Positions 25,576-31,147 of a DNA stretch of 39,732 nucleotides are shown here, in pieces. Below the pieces are notes generated by a model. The model was not told the origin of the DNA. It ran no database searches and saw only the letters and a program-made list of their open reading frames with translations. The stretch is from Candidatus Doudnabacteria bacterium RIFCSPHIGHO2_01_48_18 (GTDB lineage: Bacteria > Patescibacteriota > Doudnabacteria > UBA920 > 2-01-FULL-46-14): positions 1 through 39,732 of the forward strand of contig MFEF01000004.1 in NCBI GenBank assembly GCA_001777515.1, given 5' to 3'. The position numbers were made by a program, and so were the translations under genes. Positions within the stretch are counted from its first letter, which is position 1, and each line of letters opens with the position of its first letter.

Positions 25576-27594
<2,019 letters not shown>

Positions 27595-28734
27595 TTATCT
27601 TAGCTCGGCATTAAACTGCTTTTTGGTCTCTTCATAGAGTCTGTTTTGAAGCGGTTCAACCTCTTCGGTTTTGAGGGTCCGTTCTGGGCTTCGGTAAATA
27701 ACGCGGTATGTATAGCTCCTTTTATCTGAGCCGAATTTTTTCGCATCCTCGTATTTATCCAGCAGCTCTACCTGTTCAACCAGGTCGCCGCCGATCTCAC
27801 GGATGAGATCAAAATAGTCATTGGGAACGAAACTTTTATCTACCACAAAGGAAATATCTCGGGTAATCGGCGGGTATTTCGAAACCTCTTTAAATTTATT
27901 GCCAAGCTTCAGCTGCTTTTTGACGCGTTCATCCTGGGACCAGAGAAGCCTTATGTCAGGTATGTCCATGGAAATCATGGCAAACCTCTCAATGCCTGGA
28001 CCGAACGCCCAGCCGGTCCATTTTTCAGGATCCACACCTAATTTTTCAAACACGCTGCCTTTGACTATTCCGGAACCAACAACCTCGAGCCATTTATCGC
28101 CTTTTTGAATCTCCATCTCAAGCGACGGATCAGTATACGGAAACGTATCGGGGTTAAACCGGTATTTCACGCCGTCCCCAAAAATCGCCTTTGCGTAGTC
28201 AGCGAGAGATGCCTTCAGATCTTCAATCGTAATGACCTTTTTATCTTTGGGCGACAAATACCAGGCATCCATCTGATGGAAGACATTCATATGCCTGTTA
28301 TCGAGCTCATCTTTACGGTACACTTTTCCGTAGGAAAAACACCCAACCGGTTCACCAGCTTCCATGCGTTTTTTTACACCCGGGTCTTGCAGGTAGTAAT
28401 ACCACATCACTGTCGTATGCGTGCGCAGGATATGGTTGTCATCAACATAATAAGTATCAGAGCGCGAACGCGCCGGGTGGTCAGGGGCAAAATCAAATAA
28501 ATCAAAACTTATGTCAGTCGGCACGATTTCCGGTACTTCGATCACGTCAAATCCCTGAAATGATGGCGCCGCCAAAACGCGCCCCACGATTTCGCAGATC
28601 GGACTCCCGGGAGTGCGCGATAAATCCGGCATATTCAAATAACGTTTGAGGCGGTTTGCCGGGGCGTCATTTTTGTTTTCTAATTCTTTTTTTAGCCTAT
28701 CTTCGTCTTCTGATTTAACAACAATGTTGGCCAT
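27595..28734 (-). CDS. Phenylalanine--tRNA ligase, mitochondrial-type single chain (PheS catalytic core + C-terminal FDX-ACB)
   Basis: Class II core LRTHTTVMWYYY..., FGPGIERFAMISMDIPDIRLLWSQDERVKKQL; C-terminal KYPPITRDISFVVDKSFVPNDYFDLIREIGGDLVEQVELLDKYEDAKKFGSDKRSYTYRVIYRSPERTLK is an FDX-ACB domain. Confidence 0.93.
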   Translation of the reverse strand: MANIVVKSEDEDRLKKELENKNDAPANRLKRYLNMPDLSRTPGSPICEIVGRVLAAPSFQGFDVIEVPEIVPTDISFDLFDFAPDHPARSRSDTYYVDDNHILRTHTTVMWYYYLQDPGVKKRMEAGEPVGCFSYGKVYRKDELDNRHMNVFHQMDAWYLSPKDKKVITIEDLKASLADYAKAIFGDGVKYRFNPDTFPYTDPSLEMEIQKGDKWLEVVGSGIVKGSVFEKLGVDPEKWTGWAFGPGIERFAMISMDIPDIRLLWSQDERVKKQLKLGNKFKEVSKYPPITRDISFVVDKSFVPNDYFDLIREIGGDLVEQVELLDKYEDAKKFGSDKRSYTYRVIYRSPERTLKTEEVEPLQNRLYEETKKQFNAELR

Positions 28735-28737
28735 TGA

Positions 28738-29772
28738 TTATCGAAATTTAAAACTGTTAACTATTCCGGTGTAATACTGATCGAGCGCAGCAGAATCACT
28801 GCAGTTCCATGTTATTGCAATTACAGAATTTCCCTTCCTGAAAAATATCCCATCGTTACTGCAGCCATATTCATCCGCTGTCATGGATCTGAGTCTGACA
28901 GCTGAAGCGCCGTTTATGTTTAATTCCTCAACGGCCTGATAACGTTCGTATACAGCGGTAACCCAATCTTTCAAATTTTGCGCTTCAGCTTGCCCGGCAA
29001 GCGTGATAACAAACGGGTCGGCGGTTATTTCTTCATCGGGAGCTGAGCCAGCGATATAAAGTCCTACTGTTTGCCCATTATTCTCCTCCCGCAGGACCAA
29101 TTCTTGCGGGTATTCAACGCTGTAATTGTACGCTTTATTCACATAAAGCGTTTTATTGCTCGCAGCCGCAGCGTCTGCTTTTGTTCTCAAAGTAGTTATG
29201 GTTGGTTCATGCAAGCCCAAATCCACGCTCTTCTGCAGCCATTTTTGCCGCTCAGCAGAATCAGCTCTATCTGTAGAGTTGAGGACTGGGCTATAACCGC
29301 GCGCGACTTCTTGACCGTCATCATAACTGTCGCTGTCAGTGTCAAAGAGCATGGGATCACTACCGAAGATATCAACCTCATCGCCGTCAGCGATTCCATC
29401 GCCATCACTGTCTGCCTTTTGAAAATCAGTCCCCGCGATGTCTTCTCGCTCGTTTGAGAGGCCATCATCGTCAGTATCCGCCCTGGCCAGGGTCGCGGGG
29501 TCATCAATGCTTAGTTTCGGCTGGACATTGGGCAGATTAGCCTGGATGCGCATGTAAATGTAGTATCCGGCGGCAGCCAAAACCGCGATCGTGAAAATTC
29601 CCGCGATGATCGCGATGGTTTTCTTGCCGCGCTGTGGAGCGGGCCTCGAAACCAGATTGGCTGGACCATCGGCAGGAGGCGTGGCCGGCTTGGTACCCTC
29701 AAATTTTGGCATGACAACGAAATCTAAACCACTTTTGTCTGCGTCAGATTTTTTGTTATTAATAACGTCCAT
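28738..29772 (-). CDS. Single-TM protein with thrombospondin type 3-like Ca-binding repeats
   Basis: ADTDDDGLSNEREDIAGTDFQKADSDGDGIADGDEVDIFGSDPMLFDTDSDSYDDGQEVARG; TM IAIIAGIFTIAVLAAAGYYIYM. Confidence 0.85.
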   Translation of the reverse strand: MDVINNKKSDADKSGLDFVVMPKFEGTKPATPPADGPANLVSRPAPQRGKKTIAIIAGIFTIAVLAAAGYYIYMRIQANLPNVQPKLSIDDPATLARADTDDDGLSNEREDIAGTDFQKADSDGDGIADGDEVDIFGSDPMLFDTDSDSYDDGQEVARGYSPVLNSTDRADSAERQKWLQKSVDLGLHEPTITTLRTKADAAAASNKTLYVNKAYNYSVEYPQELVLREENNGQTVGLYIAGSAPDEEITADPFVITLAGQAEAQNLKDWVTAVYERYQAVEELNINGASAVRLRSMTADEYGCSNDGIFFRKGNSVIAITWNCSDSAALDQYYTGIVNSFKFR

Positions 29773-30169: not shown

Positions 30170-31147
30170 ATGAACCCCATATCCAACTTTTTCATAGCTC
30201 AGGAAAGCAACAACTATCGGCCTGGCGCGCTATCCTACAAGGCTTTGTTTATTTACGCTCTGTTACTGCTCCTGCTGAGGTTATTGCTAGCGTCGCTGCC
30301 AGCTCAAAGCGCCGCCGTCGAATCGCAAACCCTCATGGATTTGATCAATGCTGAACGCTCGAACAGGAACCTGACGACGCTCACCACACATCAGAGCTTG
30401 GTCTTCGCTGCTTCGCAGAAATCTCAGGATATGATTGAACGCGATTATTTTGCTCACATTGATCCTGACGGCAACTATATCTGGGGCAGAATAACGGCGG
30501 CTGGATACGGCGCATACAAGATATTGGGCGAAAACCTTGCCGTAGATTTTTTGACTTCGGAAGGCATGGTCAAAGCATGGATAGACAGCCCGACACACAG
30601 AGATAATTTACTGCATAGAGATTTTCTGGAACAGGGACTGGTCGCGCTTTACGGAGATTTTAACGACAGATATACCAACCTCACCACAAGCCTTTTTGGA
30701 ACGAGGGTGGCAGGCACGTTCACTCCTCCGCCGCCTCCGTCGCAACAGCTGTCACAACCTTCGCTTCCGCCTGCGGGCGGATCAGCGCCAACACCTGCCC
30801 CACCGCCTCCAGTCGCTCTTGTTCCTGCGCAGCAGCCTGTTTCCAATCCGACAACAACGCAGCCGACAATTACTCCTGTGACGAGCACGCAAAGACCGAT
30901 TGAACATCGTCCATGCTGCGCTCAAACCGGGACTGATGGACTTTTGTCGAAACTAAACCTTCAATCAGCGGTTGCGACCAGTCGGATAATATTCACGCTG
31001 ATCGGGATCATGCTTCTCGGGATCTTTTCTATTGATTCCGTGATAATCTCAAAACATGAGGCTGCTGTTGTCCGCAGCCATTCCAGCGCTCATTTATTCG
31101 GGCTGATGATTCTGGTTCTGATTTCAATACTGATTTGGTGGTGGTAA
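30170..31147 (+). CDS. CAP/SCP (YkwD-like) protein, Pro-rich linker and C-terminal TM
   Basis: LMDLINAERSNRNLTTLTTHQSLVFAASQKSQDMIERDYFAHIDPDGNYIWGRITAAGYGAYKILGENLAVDF...WIDSPTHRDNLLHRDFLEQGL. Confidence 0.92.
   Translation: MNPISNFFIAQESNNYRPGALSYKALFIYALLLLLLRLLLASLPAQSAAVESQTLMDLINAERSNRNLTTLTTHQSLVFAASQKSQDMIERDYFAHIDPDGNYIWGRITAAGYGAYKILGENLAVDFLTSEGMVKAWIDSPTHRDNLLHRDFLEQGLVALYGDFNDRYTNLTTSLFGTRVAGTFTPPPPPSQQLSQPSLPPAGGSAPTPAPPPPVALVPAQQPVSNPTTTQPTITPVTSTQRPIEHRPCCAQTGTDGLLSKLNLQSAVATSRIIFTLIGIMLLGIFSIDSVIISKHEAAVVRSHSSAHLFGLMILVLISILIWWW

Follow-up and report, generated by a model that had tools for sequence, protein, structure and literature searches.

Genes and domains at the locus

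The window (the whole stretch of 39,732 nucleotides that was analysed) belongs to a Patescibacteria draft genome, G000 (919 kb, 33 contigs, 100% complete), and encodes on its minus strand, at 27595..28734 (stop codon included), a single-chain phenylalanyl-tRNA synthetase (PheRS) of 379 residues, the sole PheRS candidate of the genome. The ORF begins with ATG and contains no internal stop. An earlier note on this DNA described a chain of the same length and position, both of which are confirmed; the strand, the altered phenylalanine pocket and the linkage to gyrB are absent from that note.

The arrangement noted earlier, a PheS-like core and then an FDX-ACB domain in one chain, is borne out by HMMER matches to both domains. 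The PheS-type class II catalytic core (PF01409; 27913..28557, minus strand, residues 60-274) scores 187 bits (E = 4.7e-55) by hmmscan, far over the cut-off, and has a PheRS fold in the structure model; a six-frame search of the genome returned a PF01409 match with identical limits. Ten residues separate the core from the FDX-ACB anticodon-binding domain (PF03147; 27598..27882, minus strand, residues 285-379), which is matched over the full profile (1-94) with 88.8 bits (E = 3.4e-25, hmmscan), also far over the cut-off. In two-subunit PheRS, the FDX-ACB domain sits at the end of PheT. The class II core is predicted to activate phenylalanine with ATP and then to load it on tRNA-Phe, and His106, Arg140, Gln154 and the residues of motifs 2 and 3 are kept in all or nearly all relatives. 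The C-terminal FDX-ACB domain is predicted to bind the anticodon arm and, by analogy with human FARS2, probably swings open to admit the tRNA.

The AlphaFold2 model of the protein (pLDDT 92, pTM 0.86) starts with two short helices (residues 9-19 and 24-34), in line with the statement that an N-terminal coiled coil is missing. Its TM score is 0.77 against tRNA-free human FARS2 (3cmq) and 0.59 against the open tRNA-bound form. Among solved proteins, the top sequence matches are without exception human FARS2 (204 bits, E = 2e-59; bacterial PheS, 4e-38), such that FARS2 is indeed the closest solved protein in sequence and fold, but the architecture is not confined to mitochondria and this bacterium. 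Three NCBIfam models score below their cut-offs: NF051887, SrmL (242.4 bits; cut-off 300), TIGR00469, mitochondrial PheRS (237.6 bits; curated cut-off 258.35), and TIGR00468, bacterial PheS (163.3 bits; cut-off 237.45). Since the TIGR00469 score places the protein outside the mitochondrial equivalog, we file it as a variant of PheRS-M.

Downstream of the PheRS gene, at a distance of 87 bp, lies gyrB (25576..27507, minus strand; assigned by Pfam), a gene that identifies the pheRS locus whichever enzyme type is present. The interval between the PheRS stop and gyrB (27507-27594) contains a 13-bp perfect inverted repeat, CCCTCACCCTTTC / GAAAGGGTGAGGG, with a potential stem of ~15 bp that covers the gyrB Shine-Dalgarno sequence and start codon (-31.7 kcal/mol, z -4.7); this stem possibly controls gyrB translation. 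The exact repeat is absent from the loci retrieved from other genomes. Upstream, a gene for a TSP3-repeat protein (28738..29772, minus strand) ends 3 nt short of the PheRS start codon, its own stop included; it is probably cotranscribed with the PheRS gene and lies outside the enzyme, and a homologue stands upstream in several class members. Window positions 30170-31147 encode a CAP/SCP-domain protein that contains a proline-rich stretch and, at its C-terminal end, hydrophobic segments.

The PheRS complement and the phenylalanine pocket

The earlier note saw no pheT adjacent to the gene; none lies beside it, and searches for three PheT domains, PF17759, PF03484 and PF03483 (CLM, B5 and B3/4), find none elsewhere in G000, whereas each was detected in 14/14 positive-control genomes. 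A second PheS was likewise not found in G000: the other PF01409 match is a 489-aa ORF with 21 bits only, which we take to be a related class II enzyme, for example LysRS. The genome search thus finds no canonical pheS/pheT pair, the finding that the earlier note had named as contrary to its assignment.

This genome content recurs among relatives. Single-chain PheRS is the only form in 32 of the 44 genomes of the class and PheS/PheT the only form in nine; three genomes have neither and none has both. Among 287 genomes of the phylum, in which single-chain matches score at least 381 bits and PheS matches at most 172, PheT is present in 251 and the single chain in 27, of which six do not belong to the class; again no genome has both. 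A scan of GTDB species genomes yielded 68 loci, every one from a Parcubacteria-type lineage or a bacterial MAG. Because the exclusion pattern spans more than one draft, an assembly gap is an unreasonable explanation for the missing pheT, and the lack of PheT and of a second PheS, together with mutual exclusion, indicates that the window protein is almost certainly the cell's sole PheRS. A viral origin of the gene was rejected: two scans of IMG/VR found no relatives, and the phage and plasmid matches are ordinary PheS or SrmL.

A gene for tRNA-Phe was not found in the G000 draft, nor was tRNA-Gly(GCC), its neighbour in several relatives. Both absences likely reflect one assembly gap, because G001, from the same genus, has tRNA-Phe (81% match) and the gene that usually adjoins it is missing here as well. 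Comparison of single-chain and PheT genomes revealed no difference in tRNA-Phe by enzyme type, and G019 (single-chain) and G042 (PheT) have identical copies of the tRNA. The tRNA-Phe of the class, with either enzyme type (L126-L136), carries the anticodon loop CTGAAGA (G at position 37) and not the usual bacterial TGAAAA, which is why a search pattern with the latter loop gave no match. An odd 69-nt tRNA-like match in the source genome (L116:312-380, G000:C3:10025-10093; 34 bits) has an irregular anticodon arm and is rejected by ARAGORN.

In human FARS2, Gln124 and Glu159 contact the hydroxyl of m-Tyr by hydrogen bonds (PMC3275996). The corresponding pocket positions were counted from hmmalign for the single-chain family (n = 93 relatives) and from MAFFT for the canonical enzymes, many of which hmmalign misaligned. 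In the window protein, the place of Gln124 (MAFFT, FARS2 numbering) is taken by Trp111 (28402..28404, minus strand), a residue invariant in the family (93/93 relatives); the same place holds Gln in 9/9 other bacteria and in 44/51 of the canonical Patescibacteria sampled. Asp156 (28267..28269, minus strand) is the equivalent of Glu159, a position with Asp in 68/93 relatives and Gly in 25/93. Wherever Gly156 occurs, residue 107 has become Asp (D107/G156 in 25, T107/D156 in 67, D107/D156 in one), as if one carboxylate had moved inside the pocket, and because the Gly156 forms cluster in the tree, the D107/G156 pairing may be a single event. Tyr200 (28135..28137, minus strand) is the equivalent of Phe234, changing the aromatic pair from FPF to FPY; this place has Tyr in 89 of 92 readable relatives and Phe in FARS2 and in 9/9 other bacteria. 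Ser121 is Thr in the family, whereas Phe232 and Thr235 (Thr201 here) are kept.

FARS2 itself retains the bacterial residues of the pocket (S/Q/E/F). The label of a mitochondrial-type enzyme given in the earlier note therefore holds for the architecture but not for the phenylalanine pocket, which departs at four positions from the bacterial as well as the mitochondrial form. Intermediate steps toward this pocket exist, judging from alignment, among canonical Patescibacteria PheS: Thr108 and Asp156 occur together in 11/51 of these sequences and in 0/9 other bacteria (MAFFT), and in the sequences that have them the Gln is sometimes replaced by S, T, Y or D.

With no B3/B4 editing domain and, as we infer, no editing in trans, the synthetic site itself must keep out Tyr and m-Tyr. 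The Trp at residue 111 and the change of Glu159 to Asp or Gly remove both side chains that bind the m-Tyr hydroxyl, and we propose that these substitutions tighten the synthetic site. A tightened pocket would compensate for the lost editing domain; alternatively, the changes could lower affinity for phenylalanine instead of improving discrimination.

Relation to FARS2 and history of the locus

Single-chain PheRS is the mitochondrial type of the textbooks. Like FARS2 (PDB 3cmq, 3tup), the window protein consists of one chain in which a PheS-type core is directly followed by FDX-ACB, with neither a coiled coil nor an editing domain; unlike FARS2, it lacks an insert of ~25 residues after motif 2 (alignment gap at FARS2 175-202), and the two cores are about 38% identical. 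The motifs that the earlier note compared with human FARS2 agree with the PDB sequences (window/human: IPDIRLLWSQDER / IPDIRLFWCEDER, IGGDLVEQVELLDK / IGGDLVEKVDLIDK and YRVIYRSPERTLK / YRITYRHMERTLS). The close match claimed on that basis is found in the FDX-ACB domain, where FARS2 is 33-51% identical to the single-chain family (mean 41%; window protein 44.9%) and 18-33% identical to bacterial PheT, but not in the catalytic core, where FARS2 is about equally close to the family (mean 36.8%) and to bacterial PheS (mean 35.5%).

Trees calculated without SrmL split FARS2 and the family from the canonical enzymes (core 100/98, FDX 98/95), and in a larger set with one eukaryotic sequence FARS2 and the family stand together in 1000/1000 bootstraps. 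When SrmL is included, a grouping of FARS2 with the canonical enzymes is not rejected (p-AU 0.523, again with one eukaryotic sequence). FARS2 falls beside the bacterial family or, for the FDX domain, within it. A fused ancestor shared by FARS2 and the family is thus favoured but not settled by these comparisons, since the signal comes mainly from the FDX domain and one eukaryotic sequence with long branches falls short of proof. That such bacterial enzymes bear on where mitochondrial PheRS came from, as the earlier note anticipated, is upheld by this grouping.

The gene neighbourhood links the two enzyme types. Among 95 single-chain loci, gyrB was found in 71, never farther away than 3.5 kb and mostly (58) as the next gene downstream in the same orientation; of the loci that extend over 3 kb to each side, only five lack it. 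The two-subunit loci examined in the phylum (17, those of the class among them) have gyrB immediately or shortly after pheT, again in the same orientation. The presence of gyrB beside both enzyme types indicates that the single-chain gene sits in the pheST slot, in which repeated replacements, of the two-subunit genes by it or the reverse, would have taken place: PheRS type changes about five times on the gyrB tree of the class. The single-chain tree is in conflict with the gyrB tree, and G032 (L143) and G035 (L157), two members of one genus with sister gyrB genes, have single-chain PheRS from two distant branches. Replacement of PheRS by horizontally acquired copies at a fixed locus would best explain this conflict. 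We hold it very probable that the window protein is a sole, single-chain PheRS that works like mitochondrial PheRS and occupies a pheST slot in which enzyme type has been swapped repeatedly within the class.

How this chain arose is a separate matter. The heterotetrameric enzymes share with it a homologous core (25-41% identical), an FDX-ACB domain (the last domain of PheT) and, in Patescibacteria, the location beside gyrB; the single chain differs in being the product of one gene, not two, and in having no coiled coil, no B1-B7 and no B3/B4 editing domain. Between these forms stand reduced enzymes. Many Patescibacteria have a core-only PheS of 227-259 aa without a coiled coil, several of them together with a PheT of 616-668 aa (L202-L217, L219-L221, L271-L274, L189, L190). 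These enzymes have lost the coiled coil, as has the single chain, and in some gyrB is adjacent or the Thr108/Asp156 states are present; they are still two chains, and the short PheT proteins tested (L189, L190) keep B3/4, B5, CLM and FDX-ACB. Two families, f28 and f74, include both genomes with reduced PheS/PheT and single-chain carriers. Core-only PheS with short PheT is a plausible intermediate toward the single chain.

One account of the origin, compatible with the functional reading above, places it inside Patescibacteria: a deletion in place would have joined a core-only PheS to the final domain of an already short PheT beside gyrB, and the fused gene would then have spread. The constant order pheS-pheT-gyrB in the 17 canonical loci, the occurrence of reduced forms in families that also carry the single chain, and the pocket states shared with 11/51 canonical Patescibacteria PheS are in its favour, as are trees without FARS2, in which the family joins the short forms (88/94) and these are nearest in 965/1000 bootstraps. 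With FARS2 included, however, the attachment is divided among other bacteria (416 of 1000), long Patescibacteria sequences (283) and short forms (273), the joint clade with FARS2 is neither shown nor rejected (p-AU 0.436), and the join to the fast-evolving short forms may be long-branch attraction. FARS2 has neither the Thr nor the Asp state, so that a fusion in place would also need parallel gain or a reversion in FARS2. We regard this account as tentative, a serious candidate that falls somewhat short of even likelihood. A single branch of single-chain forms apart from the canonical enzymes, obtained in the first small trees, was not retained, as with broader sampling the attachment varies with FARS2; because of this dependence we claim no rooted origin.

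A more far-reaching version is that mitochondrial PheRS came from, or shares its fusion with, a Patescibacteria single chain made by collapse of pheS-pheT beside gyrB, the bacterial form having spread by repeated replacement while its pocket was rebuilt round the invariant Trp to exclude tyrosine without editing. We consider this broader scenario unlikely, if still worth stating.

Alternative readings and significance

Almost all class II synthetases are oligomers, and the monomeric state proposed for the window protein deserves scrutiny. Human mitochondrial PheRS is named as the only known monomeric class II enzyme (PMC3275996), and the protein could be a PheRS that acts as a homodimer or relies on an unrecognised partner for the missing tRNA contacts. 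The chain nevertheless has both domains that are sufficient in FARS2, and its model fits monomeric FARS2 over its length; no conserved partner gene stands beside all loci, as gyrB neighbours canonical loci too. An oligomeric enzyme is accordingly improbable, and a monomer is the preferred reading.

Horizontal transfer of a mitochondrial PheRS gene from a eukaryote into Patescibacteria would account for the grouping of FARS2 with the family in all bootstraps of the larger set and for FDX-ACB features that the two share and that are unseen in PheT. FARS2, however, lies beside the family or, for FDX, inside it, and a single eukaryotic sequence decides the direction for neither side. The FARS2 pocket is S/Q/E/F, whereas the Thr and Asp of the family also occur in canonical Patescibacteria PheS, and the gene occupies the native pheST-gyrB slot. 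Such a transfer is very improbable.

The same two-domain architecture and a similar length are found in SrmL, the "PheS-related mystery ligase" of NF051887, to which no function is assigned. Carriers seen are a 635-kb uncultured phage genome, plasmids of Glutamicibacter and Azotobacter, and the Patescibacterium G177 (SrmL genes L125:3872-4948, L123:3830-4948, L124:3842-4954 and, in G177, L188). In G177, the SrmL-like gene coexists with PheS and PheT, evidence that an accessory gene, too, has the fused architecture. That the window protein is an SrmL-like paralogue for another substrate, with the true PheRS missing from the assembly, is hardly credible: it has the architecture, the Asp at the Glu159 place and the Tyr at the Phe234 place in common with SrmL and scores slightly higher with NF051887 (242 bits) than with pheS_mito (237.6), but genuine SrmL proteins reach 423-524 bits and have HPY/HYY where PheRS has FPF/FPY, and the single-chain family, in strict mutual exclusion across hundreds of genomes, never accompanies PheT.

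A review describes the prokaryotic PheRS heterotetramer as conserved in all known species and the single chain as mitochondrial (PMC3275996), and we found no report of a bacterial single-chain PheRS in the literature collection searched. The bacteria described here form a contrasting set in which a single-chain PheRS with no editing domain is the only PheRS. This form serves many Patescibacteria, and with SrmL its architecture extends to a third family. Against the bacterial enzymes one can set the puzzle of how mitochondrial PheRS originated, and they complete a natural series that runs from full PheS/PheT, through core-only PheS with short PheT, to one chain. Whether a synthetic site can replace editing against Tyr and m-Tyr becomes a question testable on two related enzymes. 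The locus presents an essential gene that appears to have switched type repeatedly at one place while tRNA-Phe can stay unchanged.
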